From the NCBI RefSeq assembly GCF_011758805.1, contig NZ_JAANOW010000001.1:1240001-1304000 (forward strand): 64,000 bases of DNA. Direction: 5' to 3'. Position 1 is the first letter of the stretch, and each line of letters starts with the position of its first letter. The notes below the pieces were generated by a model. It was not told where the DNA came from. It saw only the letters and a list, made by a program, of their open reading frames with translations, and did no database searches. Below are positions 2,701-61,266 of the stretch, one piece after another. Source of the stretch: Mycolicibacterium fluoranthenivorans (GTDB taxonomy: Bacteria > Actinomycetota > Actinomycetes > Mycobacteriales > Mycobacteriaceae). Both the position numbers and the translations under genes were made by a program.

Positions 2701-4209
2701 ATGCGTGCGAAGCGACTACCGGAACCGTTGTCTGCGGCGGTGCTGTTGCTGTCGAGCGCTCTTGCGGCGCTGGTGTCCGCGCTGGCACTGGCTGGCGCGA
2801 CCCAGTGGCCGGCGGTCGCTTCGGCGGCTGGGGGAGTGGCGGCCGGAGTCTTGTTCGGCGCGGTGAGTTGGGCGTGTGCCGGCGGCCGGTCGGCGCTGGC
2901 GGGCCGGGTCGCCGTCGCGGCGGCGTTCGGGGTCGTCGTCGGTGAGCTGGCGGCGACGGTGATCTTCGCCGGACCGATCGACCGGGTGCTTGCGGCGCAG
3001 GTCGATTCGGCGCCCGCGGTGGTGCGCGCCTCTGCCGAGCTGGATCAGGCACGCCGAGCCAGAGCCGGCCTCGACGATGCCGTCGCGACAGCCAACACCC
3101 AACGCGACGAGGCCCTCGTGGTGGCCAGGTGCGAGTTCAACCCGTCTCCGCAGTGCCCGCAGGTCCGCATCACGGGTGTACCCGGTGCCGGACCCGAGAC
3201 CCGCACCGCGAACGAGATCCTCGCCGACGCGCAACGCCAGGTCGACGCGGCCGTCGCCGACCGCAGCGGCCGGGCCGCCGGGCTGGAGGCCGATATCGCA
3301 GGTCGAGAACAAGCGCTGGAGGCCGCCCGCCGAAGCGGCGAGGTGACCGGTCTGGGCGTCCGCTGGTCGGCGATGAACGGATATACCGGCACCCATCCGG
3401 GTCCGCTGGTACTGCGGGTCCTGATGGACATGTTCTTCGTGCTGCTCAGCGTGCTGCCGTTGATCCTCCGGCGGTGGCGGGGCGCCACGGCCGCCGAGCG
3501 GGGTGCCCAGGCCGCCGCCGAACGGCACCGCGCCGAACTGGCGGCCGATACGGCGATCGCGGTCAAGCGGGCCGAGGTCCGCTCGACCATCGAGGAGATG
3601 TGGGCCGAACAGGAGCTGGAGAGCGCCCGGCTGGCCGTCGCGGCGCAGAACGAGATCGACCGTGAGCAGCAGCGTCGCCGCGTCGAGCAGGCATTGCAGG
3701 CCCGGGAGCAGGTGCGGGTGGTGCGGCCTGAACCGGTGTTCCGTGAGATCGAGCCACCGGTCGATGTGCATCTGCCGGTCGCCGCCCAGGACGCCGCCGG
3801 CATCCGGGCGCTGGACGGGCCGGAGTCCGGGAACCTGCCTGCCGTCGCCGAGCCGCAGCGCAGTGGTGGGCTGGCGGCCATCCCCGTCATTCCCGACGTC
3901 ACGAAGGCCGCGGTGCGCTGGATCCGGCCCTTCGTGCCGCCCATCGTCGCCGGTGCCATCGACAACGCCACCAAGCCGCTGCGGCAGGTCTTCGAGGAGA
4001 CCGAGGAAATCCACTTCACCCTGCGACGCACGCACAAGGTGACCGTCCAGACCGAGGGCGCAGCCGAGGGGCCGGCCGAATCCGTCGAGTCCGGTTGGAC
4101 GGACGTCCCGGGCATCGGCCGGGTCAGGTCCCGGCGGGGTCCGGAGCTGACTGACGCGGAGCACCATCCGGAGCTGCCCGGCCGACGTCAGCTGCCGCCG
4201 GCCCGTTAG
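2701..4209 (+). CDS. DUF4407 domain membrane protein
   Basis: About 502 residues. Three hydrophobic segments lie in the first 90 residues. An Ala/Arg/Glu-rich, probably coiled-coil stretch follows at about 100-215, then a further membrane helix near 241-256 (MFFVLLSVLPLILRRW) and a second charged coiled coil at 260-345. The tail is disordered. This order is typical of DUF4407 proteins, whose function is unknown. ATG 2701 was chosen because the in-frame extension upstream runs through the triple repeat and encodes repetitive sequence. The kinase/solute-binding gene follows 97 bp later on the same strand, so the two might act together at the membrane, but nothing shows this directly. Confidence 0.75.
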   Translation: MRAKRLPEPLSAAVLLLSSALAALVSALALAGATQWPAVASAAGGVAAGVLFGAVSWACAGGRSALAGRVAVAAAFGVVVGELAATVIFAGPIDRVLAAQVDSAPAVVRASAELDQARRARAGLDDAVATANTQRDEALVVARCEFNPSPQCPQVRITGVPGAGPETRTANEILADAQRQVDAAVADRSGRAAGLEADIAGREQALEAARRSGEVTGLGVRWSAMNGYTGTHPGPLVLRVLMDMFFVLLSVLPLILRRWRGATAAERGAQAAAERHRAELAADTAIAVKRAEVRSTIEEMWAEQELESARLAVAAQNEIDREQQRRRVEQALQAREQVRVVRPEPVFREIEPPVDVHLPVAAQDAAGIRALDGPESGNLPAVAEPQRSGGLAAIPVIPDVTKAAVRWIRPFVPPIVAGAIDNATKPLRQVFEETEEIHFTLRRTHKVTVQTEGAAEGPAESVESGWTDVPGIGRVRSRRGPELTDAEHHPELPGRRQLPPAR

Positions 4210-38696: not shown

Positions 38697-39290
38697 ATGT
38701 CGACCCCAACCCGGTGGGCGGGTGTCCCGCTGACCGACCGGCGCGCCGAGCGGCGCGGACTCCTGGTCGACGCCGCCTATGCGTTGTTCGGCGACGGTGG
38801 CGAGGCGGCCCTGTCGGTGCGTTCGGTGTGCCGGGCCGCCGGGCTGAACTCCCGGTACTTCTACGAGAGCTTCGCCGACACCGACGAGCTGCTCGGCGCG
38901 GTGTACGACAAGGTGAGTGCCGAACTCGCCAAGACGGTGGACGCGGCGATGGCATCGGCCGCCGACGCGCTGCGCGCCCGCACCAGGGCGGGTATGGCGG
39001 CGGTGCTGGACTTCGGTTCGGCGGACCCGCGCCGGGGCCGGGTGCTGTTCACCGATGCCCGGTCCAATCCCGTGCTGATCGCGCGCCGGGCCGCCACCCA
39101 GGATCTGCTGCTGGCCGCCGTGCTCGCCGAGGTGCAGCCGGGCGCCGACCCGGTGGTCGCGCGGGTCGGCGCGGCGATGTACACCGGCGCGATGGCGGAG
39201 TTGGCCCAGCAGTGGCTTGCGGGCGCGTTGGGTACGGACCTGGATGCGGTGGTCGACGCGGCGCTCGGGCTCGTGCTCGGCCGAGATTGA
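38697..39290 (+). CDS. TetR family repressor
   Basis: 197 residues from ATG 38697. It has an N-terminal helix-turn-helix (RRGLLVDAAYALFGDGGEAA, SVRSVCRAAGLNSRYFYESF) and an all-helical ligand domain. It probably regulates itself and DUF2236 through the two operators in the shared 76-bp gap. The last codons and the stop lie inside the left hairpin of the DUF559 cassette, so insertion of that element may have replaced the original C-terminus. Confidence 0.9.
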   Translation: MSTPTRWAGVPLTDRRAERRGLLVDAAYALFGDGGEAALSVRSVCRAAGLNSRYFYESFADTDELLGAVYDKVSAELAKTVDAAMASAADALRARTRAGMAAVLDFGSADPRRGRVLFTDARSNPVLIARRAATQDLLLAAVLAEVQPGADPVVARVGAAMYTGAMAELAQQWLAGALGTDLDAVVDAALGLVLGRD

Positions 39291-39339
39291 CGAAAAGGTC
39301 GTTCCCGGTGCGGTGACAGCGACCATGTCGTCGATCTCG
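39282..39339. repeat. Upstream hairpin of DUF559 cassette 1
   Basis: 58-bp element with 20-nt arms: left CGAGATTGACGAAAAGGTCG, right arm at 39320-39339 pairing at 17 of 20 positions, with an 18-nt loop. It shares its ends (GAGATNGACGAAA and TCGANCTCG) with the element at 40225-40280. The DUF559 start codon is 43 bp downstream. Confidence 0.75.
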
Positions 39340-39382
39340 ACGGAGATGGATCCGCCGGGCGGCATGGCGCGTCCAAGAAGGT

Positions 39383-40226
39383 GTGCCGGTTGCATTCGTC
39401 GGGGGTGACGCGGTGACGGCCGGGCGCCTCACCCGTGCCCAGCTTCGTCACCGCTATCGACCGATATTCCGGGGGATCTACATCCCCAAGCACCATCTGC
39501 CCTCGTTGTGGGATCGGATCGAAGGGGCGTTGCTCGTCGCGCCCGGTGCCGTGGTCGCAGGTGTGGCTGCGTCGGCGCTGCACGGGGCGAAATGGGTCGA
39601 CGATGACGTGGACGTCGAGTTGATCGCGGCATGTCGGCCTCAGCCGGGCCTCGTGGTGCGCAGGGAGGCGCTGGGTGAGGGCGAGATCATCACAGTGCGT
39701 GGGATTCGGGTGACGTCACCGGTCCGGACGGCCTTTCGACCTGGGGCGCCACCTGACCCGGGATATGGCGGTGGCCCGTCTCGACGCCCTGATGAATGCG
39801 AAGCCGTTCGCCGTCGAAGATGTCGAGCTGCTCGCAAAGGTCCATCCTGGACGGCGCTGGCTGACCCGGCTGAATTCCGCATTGCCTCTTGTCGATGGTG
39901 GTGCCGAGTCGCCGAAGGAGACGTGGTTGCGCTTGTTGTTCGCCGACGCCGGGTTGCCCACGCCCACCACGCAGTTCGTCGTCCGCACCGAGTCTGGCCG
40001 CTACGTCCGGCGGATCGACATGGCCTGGGAGAAGTTCAAGGTCGGTGCCGAGTACGACGGTCAGCAACATCTGACCGAGCGCGCGCAGTACGCGAAGGAC
40101 GTGTGGGCGAATCGCGAATTGCGCCGGCTGGATTGGCACCTCGTACACGTGATCAAGGAGGACCGCGGACGCGATGTCGTCGCGGACGCCCGCGCCGCTC
40201 TGAAGGCCCGCGGCTGGTCGGGTTGA
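39383..40226 (+). pseudogene. DUF559 (Vsr-like) protein, broken by a +1 frameshift
   Basis: Two overlapping frames form one protein. The first part (from GTG 39383: MPVAFVGGDAVTAGRLTRAQ) is the AbiEi-like winged helix and runs to TSPVRTAF. The second resumes as DLGRHLTRDM. The shift is one extra T in the TTT at 39734-39736: without it GCC-TTC-GAC-CTG reads through. The second part carries the nuclease-fold motifs RRIDMAWEKFKVGAEYDGQQ (Asp, Glu-x-Asp). It is clearly paralogous to the intact gene at 58727-59560, for example ESPKETWLRLL against [12 protein letters not shown] sequencing error cannot be excluded. The stop TGA overlaps the right hairpin. Confidence 0.82.
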
Positions 40227-40280
40227 GATCGACGAAAGGGTTGCTCACACGGTGCTGCGGACAGTCCTTTGGTCGACCTC
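40225..40280. repeat. Downstream hairpin of DUF559 cassette 1
   Basis: 56-bp element: left arm GAGATCGACGAAAGG, right arm CCTTTGGTCGACCTC, pairing at 13 of 15. It is a direct repeat of 39282-39339, with conserved ends and a diverged middle. The stop codon of the DUF559 gene overlaps its first two bases. Confidence 0.75.
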
Positions 40281-54651: not shown

Positions 54652-58629
<3,978 letters not shown>

Positions 58630-58638
58630 TTCGTACGG

Positions 58639-58674
58639 AAAAGGCCCCCGCGCTCAGCGTGGGGGCCTTTTTCG
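58639..58674 (+). terminator. rpoBC intrinsic terminator
   Basis: AAAAGGCCCCCGCGC-TCAG-CGTGGGGGCCTTTTT: a stem of about 15 bp with a true U-run, 10 bp after the rpoC stop. It is the only textbook U-tract terminator in the window. Confidence 0.95.
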
Positions 58675-58680
58675 TGCGTT

Positions 58681-58734
58681 GAGTGTGAAACGTCTGCGCG
58701 CTGGAAGCGTTTGCGCCGCAGGGGATTCACACTC
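58681..58734. repeat. Downstream hairpin of DUF559 cassette 2
   Basis: 54-bp element with ends GAGTGTGAA and TTCACACTC (9 of 9 paired; 15 of 18 over the full arms). It is a direct repeat of 59606-59659: same length, 41 of 54 identical. The DUF559 stop codon lies inside its right end. Confidence 0.85.
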
Positions 58735-59560
58735 GGCGGGCGAAGGCTCGGTTGAGACGGTTGATGATGCCGCGCTCGGGGTCGCGCTTGGTCACCCGGA
58801 CGATGACCCAGCCGAGGTTCGCCAATGCCTCCAGGCGGTGGATGTCGCGGGCGAAGACCTCCGGGTCGACGCGGTGCTGACCGCCGTCGTACTCGGCCCC
58901 GATCTTGAGGTTCTCCCAGCCCATGTCCACCCGCGCGAACGGATAGCCGTACTCGTCGCGAACGGTGATCTGCGTCTGGGGTCGTGGAAATCCGGCCCGG
59001 ATGATCAGCAACCGCAGCCAGGTTTCGCGTGGAGACTCGGCTCCGGCGTCGACCAGCTCGAGCGCTCTCCTGACGTTCCGCAGTCCGCGCCGGCCCGGGT
59101 ACCGCGCCGCCAGCTTCTCGACCGCGACGAACTCCAGGTGGGTCGCATGGGCCAGGGCGTCGATCGCGGCGACGGCAGCGTCGAGTGGACGCCGGCAGCC
59201 GATGTCGAGCGCGGCGCGGACCGGAGAACACACGGGCATACCGCGGATCTCCACGATCTCGTCCTGCTCGATGTGGTCAGAGAAGGTTCGGATGCCTTGT
59301 GGCGGGTGGCGGTTGTCGTGAATGAGTTCAGCGGGCTCGTGTGCCCCGACCCATGGCGTGCGGTGCAGGGCGGCGGCGGAGTTGCCGGCGATGATGGCGC
59401 GCCGCTTCGACCACAACCATGCGGCCTGGGCCCGGCTGCTCGCCGTGAGAGCGCTGTCGACGTGGACGTTCGGATAGACGGTCGTGAAACGGGTGCGCAG
59501 CTTGTGGGAGTTCAACGCCCCGGATGCCAAGGCTTCGCTGCCGAGGAACGGGTCTCCCAT
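58727..59560 (-). CDS. DUF559 domain protein, Vsr-like nuclease fold with AbiEi-like N-terminus
   Basis: 277 residues from ATG 59560 ([20 protein letters not shown]). Residues 1-100 look like the winged helix of AbiEi-type and DUF559 proteins. Residues 160-277 hold the endonuclease-like domain with [20 protein letters not shown], where Asp and Glu-x-Asp could form a PD-(D/E)XK metal site. It is an intact paralog of the broken gene at 39383. It sits between two 54-bp hairpins, at the place where M. tuberculosis has Rv0669c. Activity and function are unknown; either a mobile-element enzyme or a defence nuclease would fit. Confidence 0.85.
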
Positions 59561-59605
59561 GATTGAAGTCTCAGGCCGCCTCGGTTGTGACAGCTCTGAG
59601 AAATC

Positions 59606-59659
59606 GAGTGTGAAACTTCTGCGGAAAATCGGCGTCTGCGGCGCAGCGGATTCACGCTC
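59606..59659. repeat. Upstream hairpin of DUF559 cassette 2
   Basis: 54-bp element with ends GAGTGTGAA and TTCACGCTC, paired at 14 of 18 arm positions. The DUF559 start codon is 45 bp away. On the other side, the nfo start codon is 40 bp away, so the element lies in the nfo leader. Confidence 0.85.
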
Positions 59660-59699
59660 GACGCGGGCGCTGTCGGGCCACGCACCTAGACTGGACGGC

Positions 59700-60449
59700 G
59701 TGCTCATCGGTTCGCATGTCGACAATGCAGATCCCCTGGCCGCCGCTACCGCAGACGGCGCCGACGTGGTGCAGTTCTTCCTCGGCAACCCGCAGAGCTG
59801 GAAGAAGCCGGCGCCGCGTGAGGATGCCGAAACGCTGCGTGCCTCCGCGGTTCCGCTGTACGTCCACGCGCCCTACCTGATCAACGTCGCGTCGGCGAAC
59901 AACAAGGTGCGCATTCCCTCGCGCAAGATCCTGCAGGACACCTGTGACGCCGCCGCGGCGGTCGGCGCCACCGCCGTCATCGTGCACGGCGGACACGCGG
60001 ACGACAAGGACATCGAGGCCGGATTCGAGCGGTGGGTCAAGGCCCTGGACGCACTCAACACCGACGTGCCGGTGTACCTGGAGAACACCGCCGGCGGTGA
60101 TCACGCCATGGCCCGCCAGTTCGACACCATCGCCCGGTTGTGGGATCACATCGGTGACAAGGGAATCGGCTTCTGTCTGGACACCTGCCACGCGTGGGCG
60201 GCGGGGGAGGCCCTGATCGACGCGGTGGAGCGGATCCAGGCCATCACGGGACGTATCGACCTGGTGCACTGCAACGACTCCAGGGACGCGGCCGGGTCGG
60301 GCGCCGACCGGCATGCCAATTTCGGTCTGGGACAGATCGATCCGCAACTGCTGGCCGCCGTCGTGAAGGCCGCCGCCGCGCCCGTCATCTGCGAGACCTC
60401 CGAAGAGGGCCGCAAGGACGATATCGCCTTCCTCCGCGAGAACGTCTAG
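59700..60449 (+). CDS. nfo: Endonuclease IV (AP endonuclease)
   Basis: 249 residues from GTG 59700 ([16 protein letters not shown]). The AP endonuclease 2 family signature runs through [64 protein letters not shown] and ICETSEEG, providing the tri-zinc ligands. It cleaves abasic sites in base-excision repair. By synteny it is M. tuberculosis end (Rv0670). The lpqP gene starts 4 bp downstream. The 54-bp hairpin in its leader may affect expression. Confidence 0.95.
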
Positions 60450-60453
60450 GCCC

Positions 60454-61266
60454 GTGCGCCTGGCCGCGTTGCTGGCGGTGGCCCTGCTCACCGCGGGCTG
60501 CACCGGACTCAGCGCGGCGGCCGCCGGATCCACCGTGCACCATCTGGGGGACCGCACCTACCTGCTCTACGTCCCGGACGGGCTGCCCGCCCAGGCTCCG
60601 CTGGTGGTCATGTTGCACGGCGGGTTCGGCAGTGCCGCCCAGGCCGAGCGAGCCTATGGCTGGGATCGGTTGGCCGACACCGCGAAATTCGCGGTCGCCT
60701 ACCCCGACGGACTGGGCCGCGCCTGGAACGCGGGCGGCGGCTGTTGCGGACGGTCGGCCGCCGATGGTGTCGACGACGTCGGTTTCATCGCCGCGGCCGT
60801 CAGCGATATCGCCCGTCAGGTCGATGTCGATCCGAAGCGGGTATACGCCACCGGGATCAGCAACGGCGGAATGATGACGTACGCCCTGGCCTGCCACACC
60901 ACACTCTTCGCCGCGATCGGCCCGGACTCCGCGACGCAGTTGGATCCCTGCCCAGCCCCGCGCCCGACATCGGTGCTGCACATCCACGGCACTGCGGACA
61001 CCCGGATCCGTTACGACGGCGGCCGGGGTGAGGGCTTCGCGCATATCGACGGGCCGTCGGTGCCGGCGGTGAACACGTTCTGGCGCAACGTCGATCAGTG
61101 TGCTGCGCCCGCGGTCACCGTCGATGGATCGGTCACCACGTCGGCGGCCGAATGTGCCGACGGACGCGCGGTGACGCTGATGACGGTCGACGGCGGCGGC
61201 CATGAGTGGCCGGGGTTCGCCACCGACCGGCTATGGCAGTTCTTCGCCGCTCACCCGGCCAAGTAG
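60454..61266 (+). CDS. lpqP: Lipoprotein esterase LpqP, PHB depolymerase/feruloyl esterase family
   Basis: 270 residues from GTG 60454. A lipoprotein signal with lipobox LLTAGC leads into an alpha/beta hydrolase: oxyanion region MLHGGFGSAAQAE, nucleophile ATGISNGGMMTYALAC, Asp in HIHGTADTRI and His in GGGHEWPG. It matches Rv0671 LpqP by order and is cotranscribed with nfo. The last 16 bp overlap the convergent cupin gene. The substrate, probably an ester in the envelope, is unknown. Confidence 0.92.
   Translation: MRLAALLAVALLTAGCTGLSAAAAGSTVHHLGDRTYLLYVPDGLPAQAPLVVMLHGGFGSAAQAERAYGWDRLADTAKFAVAYPDGLGRAWNAGGGCCGRSAADGVDDVGFIAAAVSDIARQVDVDPKRVYATGISNGGMMTYALACHTTLFAAIGPDSATQLDPCPAPRPTSVLHIHGTADTRIRYDGGRGEGFAHIDGPSVPAVNTFWRNVDQCAAPAVTVDGSVTTSAAECADGRAVTLMTVDGGGHEWPGFATDRLWQFFAAHPAK

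Follow-up and report, generated by a model that had tools for sequence, protein, structure and literature searches.

Here, we describe a 979-bp unit from the 6.4-Mb genome of Mycolicibacterium fluoranthenivorans, in which a single nuclease gene stands between two copies of an imperfectly palindromic site (a dyad) of about 60 bp. The unit lies near one end of a 64,000-nucleotide stretch of contig NZ_JAANOW010000001.1, which is the whole stretch of DNA that was analyzed and is referred to below as the window. Many other genomes of the genus have the same architecture, one gene between two copies of a private ~60-bp dyad, and it recurs in several further families of the order. In the encoded protein, an AbiEi-type DNA-binding half is joined to a nuclease domain resembling those of I-Bth0305I and Vsr (EDxHD type). 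We consider it moderately probable that the unit is selfish or mobile, a compact element in which one gene is combined with two copies of the site that its own product would bind.

In the window, the two 54-bp elements on either side of the gene are identical at 41 positions, the runner-up 54-mer on the same strand reaching 29/54. Each is an imperfect palindrome, and in both the arms are mismatched at positions 10, 12, and 13. The arms agree at 33 of 36 positions and the 18-bp centre at 8 of 18, and the copies are in direct orientation (41/54 direct versus 36/54 inverted). The pair and its shared mismatches had been noticed in a first-pass annotation of the sequence, and both were confirmed. 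Among the 30 closest homologues, which are best matches rather than a random sample, 26 have a ~60-bp dyad on both sides as counted by eye; the exceptions are L084, L086, L088, and L090, and in L104 the two dyads are unlike each other. The genome of the window also holds distant paralogues (identities of 36–47% for six and 21–24% for three); these are bracketed by dyads of quite different sequence, in 7/8 cases by a flank-score measure, and we therefore compared gene flanks across 12 complete genomes of the genus. These genomes hold 4–16 family matches each, mostly with different sites; 94 of the 115 matches were near-full-length and were used, and 21 fragments or split copies were dropped. 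With a matching pair defined by a score of at least 18 between the upstream and downstream flanks, in either orientation, 72 of the 94 copies displayed a matching ~60-bp dyad pair, usually of a different sequence for each paralogue. The same score was reached by 1.7% of mismatched flank pairs, 6/184 neighbouring flanks, and 0/94 in-gene controls. At a threshold of 14, 77/94 copies qualified, and the higher threshold matters because the neighbouring-flank controls then rose to 45/184. In the direct orientation, the copy's own downstream flank ranked first among all 94 in 52 cases and within the top five in 66, and none of 2000 permutations reached the observed mean flank match.

Family members were also found outside the genus, in 19 of 24 genomes from other families of the order. 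Here, 30 of 74 matches were examined and 23 of them, spanning 16 genomes, were bracketed, compared with 1.8% of mismatched pairs; one bracketed copy (L287) rests on a G-rich low-complexity stretch. The first-pass annotation had reasoned that a cassette would be an untenable idea if DUF559 genes elsewhere lacked flanking hairpins, and the counts inside and outside the genus reveal that other genes of this type are bracketed as well. Variants of the bracket were also seen. At L293, in a genome from another family of the order, two or three ~32-bp repeats stand in tandem on each side of the gene, the two arrays in opposite orientation, and in Mycobacterium sp. IS-1742 a 51% identical homologue (L049:2901-3891) is bracketed by a ~27-bp inverted repeat that displays little internal palindromy by eye and is possibly a half-site version of the bracket.

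The product had been labelled a DUF559 nuclease-fold protein. Its match to Pfam DUF559 is sub-threshold (E 0.049), and MTES_1575 is the closer nuclease model (E 3e-6, below the Pfam cut-off). The N-terminal half is AbiEi-like, being matched by PADLOC AbiEi models at E 2e-6 for the window protein and 2.4e-15 for one paralogue. Structural comparison of an AlphaFold2 model (predicted local distance difference test, pLDDT, 96.9) revealed that the C-terminal fold matches Vsr and the homing endonuclease I-Bth0305I, and the EDxHD/Vsr-type catalytic residues (E179, D212, H229, and D239 in window numbering) are retained in the family, with H229 present in 67/90. The nuclease fold named in the label thus stood, and its DUF559 assignment gave way to a closer model and to an AbiEi-like half. 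AbiEi-type DNA-binding halves bind pairs of 23-bp inverted repeats, and Vsr is a mismatch-repair nickase; I-Bth0305I belongs to a group I intron of a phage and has DNA-binding parts of other kinds. The PADLOC matches could also be read as the mark of a solitary phage-defence nuclease that attacks foreign DNA, with dyads that mark or regulate its gene. The matched half is that of the antitoxin, no separate toxin gene was recognised inside the window bracket among the open reading frames or by Pfam, and neither the matched dyads nor the dispersed sites described below would be explained, so that we give this explanation hardly any credence.

In support of mobility, comparison of window positions 57501–61000 with a contig of a second species (G255, L126, with ~1 kb flanks) revealed homology over the unit only (Table 1), at 78% identity. 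The homology ends 9 bp outside one site and 2 bp outside the other, and identity is near background beyond. The G255 unit follows qcrA-qcrB and the window unit follows rpoC, and the two loci are non-homologous. The proposal that the two elements are the ends of a cassette therefore gained support from this pair, the one examined for unrelated loci, in which the same unit occurs at another locus and in another species with ends within 10 bp of the sites. Filled and gene-less alleles can also be set against each other, in sister species, at the locus of a related unit in G213. There, G109 (89%) and G063 (84%) are filled, with a gap of 1049–1103 bp, whereas in G087 (91%) the gap measures 163 bp and contains one dyad. 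Because flank identity to G213 is 95% for G109, 91–93% for G087, and 89% for G063, a loss in G087 that left one site behind is the simplest history. The same spot in 6 of 26 further relatives holds a solo palindrome resembling the dyads of other classes. In filled loci, both flanking dyads are intact.

The gap that holds the window unit, between rpoC and an AP endonuclease gene (Pfam AP_endonuc_2, E 4e-40), was compared among 30 relatives (window 58630–59699; L130-L159). The gap is short and gene-less in eight, and in seven, the window included, a family gene of one of various subfamilies lies within 1.5 kb; in the remaining 15 something else is there or the gap was not resolved. Site–gene–site units with dyads of the GAGCAGAC class occupy this gap in G002 and G029, and one such site is present in G017 and G036. 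No close empty allele of the window locus turned up among these relatives, and the nearest (G021, L131) is too divergent in the intergenic stretch for a target-site duplication to be read. The gap appears to be a hotspot behind a strong terminator.

Both the position between the rpoC terminator and nfo, which corresponds to the AP endonuclease gene, and the dimensions given in the first-pass annotation proved accurate (Table 1). A similar terminator structure is present in the gene-less relatives. The overlapping open frame on the plus strand (58514–59566) gave no match in a Pfam search. A second family copy in the window, at 39283–40246 on the plus strand, is split over two reading frames (39380–39736 and 39735–40217) and is bracketed by its own, different site, with matching arms at 39283 and 40225.

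Table 1. Coordinates of the site–gene–site unit and the adjoining terminator (window positions)
Feature	Position	Strand	Remarks
Downstream site, 54-bp core	58681..58734		Part of a ~62-bp dyad, about 58677-58738; holds the gene's stop codon
Upstream site, 54-bp core	59606..59659		Part of a ~62-bp dyad, about 59602-59663
Nuclease gene, AbiEi-like + EDxHD/Vsr-type	58727..59560	-	277 aa; ATG 59558-59560, TGA 58727-58729
Leader, upstream site to start codon	59561..59605	-	45 bp
Complete site–gene–site unit	58681..59659		979 bp; homology to G255 contig L126 confined to 58672-59661
rpoC terminator	58632..58678	+	Inverted repeat followed by a T run; host sequence adjoining the unit, outside it

The dyads are also dispersed through genomes without the gene. 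A strict pattern for the window class matched 58 sites in 32 of 297 genomes of the genus, with 1–8 sites per genome, and its reversed control matched nowhere in the 297; 54 of the 57 sites listed share exactly the same length. The pattern occurs three times in the window's genome, the third copy being solo (G000:C1:1622552-1622597), and site pairs lying 921–925 bp apart in G213, G109, G214, and G255 enclose a homologue of the gene. Of 20 regions around strict sites in seven genomes, four contain such pairs. The site is solo in the other 16, which include one from the window's genome, meaning that no family gene lies within the 1.9–3 kb fetched on each side; 15 of these 16 fall outside coding-like sequence by a crude coding measure. 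Some window-class solo sites are 81–92-bp repeats of 93–97% identity whose fetched flanks are otherwise non-homologous. The solo sites of L111, L112, L119, and L124 share 80–130 bp of surroundings at otherwise different places, as would a dispersed element larger than the dyad. A second class, CGAGCAGAC...GTCTGCTCG, was found in 94 of 118 genomes with up to 104 copies in one, solo and bracketing copies pooled. Among the places listed it is nearly always 58 bp long, and its reversed control found none in the 118 genomes. The inner half-site sequence of this class varies between genomes. Solo half-sites are nearest those of the resident element in G002 (4/4) and G006 (42/50 with 2 ties, from 25 of 69 sites), and in G280 this was so for 5/14, with 3 ties; a match of dialect between solo sites and the resident element thus held in two of three genomes only, failing in G280. 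An element confined to this locus, with no empty sites anywhere, had been named as grounds for abandoning the cassette; the strict sites in 32 genomes, the solo sites, and the gene-less counterpart of the related unit in G087 are at odds with both parts.

We next turn to the form of the site. Of the 72 pairs, 64 had a centre-aligned arm identity above 50% and were superimposed; because the arms were used to choose these pairs, their identity and palindromy are raised, and the values for the centre and the outside are unaffected. The site edges lie ~30 bp on either side of the centre. Pair identity is 0.75–0.91 in the arms, 0.52–0.58 in the centre, and 0.29–0.31 outside; palindromy is 0.58–0.87 in the arms and 0.30–0.40 in the central 18 bp; and the two copies are direct in 38 pairs and inverted in 26. 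Pairing at the free positions of the 46-mer, those that the search pattern does not fix, was assessed in 50 of the 58 strict window-class sites, after three of other length, four near-duplicates, and one unlisted site were dropped. Positions 6, 9, 15, 16, 20, and 23 pair above expectation and 21 and 22 slightly above; 7, 8, and 17 pair approximately at expectation, and 18 and 19 below it. The result is mixed, and a continuous RNA or DNA hairpin stem was set aside, as some free positions pair at or below chance. "Hairpin", the term of the first-pass annotation, is therefore probably the wrong word: the imperfect palindromes were upheld, and the stem that the word implies is less well supported. 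On balance, and not decisively, these sequence patterns fit better with two inverted half-sites in duplex DNA that a dimer would read. Palindromy is more complete in the GAGCAGAC class than in the window class, and sites of that class may therefore have a structural role.

These measurements bear on a transposition cycle in which the sites would act as single-stranded hairpins, as in the IS200/IS605 or RAYT (REP-associated tyrosine transposase) peel-and-paste mechanisms, with the role of the Y1 transposase taken by an enzyme of the PD-(D/E)XK type. The layout closely matches that given in PMC2817692, where RAYT genes are flanked by repetitive extragenic palindromic sequences (REPs) that coevolve with them and keep their position. 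The dispersal of solo sites, mostly outside coding-like sequence, the excess pairing at six free positions, and the fuller palindromy of the GAGCAGAC class also agree with such a cycle. The pairing at or below chance of positions 7, 8, and 17–19 and the fall in palindromy within 9 bp of the centre do not, and the Y1/HUH family (Pfam Transposase_17) had no match in the window protein or in 15 aligned members. We regard this mechanism as improbable.

We think it still more doubtful that the elements are transcription terminators or RNA hairpins insulating a monocistronic gene, in which case solo copies would amount to small RNAs or ordinary terminators. The Rfam family RF02470 (Ms_IGR-8) does match window-class sites, bracketing and solo, at L110 and L127 (L110:2911-2973 and 3832-3894; L127:3036-3096), at or above its gathering score, and the L159 site seems to stand in for the usual rpoC terminator. 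In 99 palindromes, wobble mismatches displayed no strand asymmetry (G.T 122 versus A.C 124), a test that bears only on RNA and not on DNA pairing; as G.T is not in excess over A.C on the sense strand, RNA pairing is disfavoured. Moreover, the terminator of rpoC and, after qcrB, a palindrome resembling a terminator lie beside the sites and are distinct from them. A terminator-only reading was rejected because the repeats match gene by gene, as generic terminators would not. The 63-nt RF02470 model is filed as a Mycobacterium small RNA and gives the window site 17.7 bits against a cut-off of 44; 20 other loci matched no Rfam family at the gathering score, and no IGR-8 passage was found in the mycobacterial small-RNA paper PMC3828370. 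Since RF02470 matches both bracketing and solo sites, the label Ms_IGR-8 may describe a DNA site.

Several observations weigh against active movement of the unit. No two copies within any of the 12 genomes exceed 68% protein identity, so recent within-genome copying was not detected there, and many orthologues are syntenic: among 88 between-genome pairs of at least 60% identity, 32 share both flanks, 16 share one, and 40 share neither. This synteny, together with the closeness of the upstream dyad to the start codon (~40 bp, in the window as in its close homologues), would suit dyads that are purely regulatory. The protein, whether regulator or nuclease, would then be stable and passed on vertically, and would repress its own promoter by way of the upstream dyad. 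Duplication or gene conversion would have produced the downstream copy, and solo sites would be a regulon or relics, with no nuclease-driven mobility. Autoregulation of AbiEi-type proteins through inverted repeats is indeed described in PMC7319586. We nevertheless judge this explanation unlikely. It accounts neither for a conserved matching dyad at the stop codon, nor for a unit whose ends coincide with the dyads at unrelated loci, nor for the mixed orientation of the pairs, the copy number of one class per genome, and the retained catalytic residues. Given the ceiling on within-genome identity and the shared flanks, the element appears to move slowly or to be moved passively, and much of it is inherited. 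The earlier idea of a mobile element thus holds in part: the unit has the same ends at two unrelated loci, and no recent copying was detected within any of the 12 genomes. A plasmid or phage origin was unsupported; seven plasmid records, none of them mycobacterial, matched at 28–35% identity, and two phage records matched weakly.

For the compact selfish or mobile element that we favour, the following mechanism can be proposed. Each ~60-bp dyad is most likely bound by a dimer, whose AbiEi-like halves would take up the two ~21-bp half-sites and so place the nuclease over the less conserved ~18-bp centre, where cutting would occur. In the window and close homologues, the upstream copy probably doubles as an autoregulatory operator. 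Breaks at solo sites, if repaired from a site–gene–site template, would spread the gene in a homing-like manner; recombination or repair between the two copies would delete the gene and leave one solo site. Solo sites may then persist and multiply as REP-like intergenic repeats. A wider proposal, which we offer tentatively and do not yet hold to be probable, is that AbiEi–EDxHD nucleases form a new actinobacterial class of selfish elements, with a private ~60-bp dyad as their ends, that cut solo copies, drive repair, and so maintain and homogenise genome-specific intergenic dyads; such a class would be REP-like, independent of HUH transposases, and endowed with orthogonal 60-bp specificities.

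Among known systems, REP/RAYT (PMC2817692) is the closest in logic. The likeness lies in a gene set between two copies of a palindromic repeat (in the window and most copies in the genus), in dispersed solo copies, in a repeat and an enzyme that vary together, and in orthologues that often keep their position. The enzyme differs, being Y1/HUH there and an AbiEi half with an EDxHD-type nuclease here, as do the repeats, which are short, GT(A/G)G-headed, and inverted around the gene there, and here are ~60-bp dyads of two half-sites in mixed orientation, direct in the window. With the EDxHD homing endonuclease I-Bth0305I the family shares catalytic fold and residues. The gene described here does not interrupt its own target, both dyads being intact when the locus is filled, and the I-Bth0305I target is presumably not duplicated on both sides of its gene. 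The AbiEi-like half recalls antitoxins of the AbiEi/Rv2827c type (type IV toxin–antitoxin systems), which are cotranscribed with a separate nucleotidyltransferase toxin gene; inside the bracket of the window no such gene was recognised, the protein has a nuclease domain fused to it, and the site also occurs downstream of the gene and solo. As for Vsr and the DUF559/MTES_1575 nucleases, bracketing sites are not described for Vsr in the literature covered. In occurring with identical limits at unrelated loci, the unit resembles a DNA transposon or insertion sequence, from which it differs in that its repeats are not terminal inverted repeats of fixed orientation. A search of open-licence papers returned, among the matches listed, none that joins these genes to palindromes; novelty is provisional on account of that coverage, and within it the unit looks like an undescribed kind of slowly moving, self-serving element.

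If this is correct, a sizeable part of the unexplained intergenic palindromes in mycobacteria and their relatives would be the footprint of one enzyme family, a family known to the libraries used here only through weak DUF559, MTES_1575, and AbiEi matches and at least one of whose site classes is catalogued as a small RNA. This would represent a second, independent solution to the REP/RAYT problem of a single-copy enzyme and a population of palindromes. Two long-standing questions would also be opened to experiment, namely how extragenic palindromes are maintained and how the specificity of a nuclease evolves together with its site, for which the 12 genomes with their several family members each would provide a ready set of natural long-site DNA-binding nucleases.
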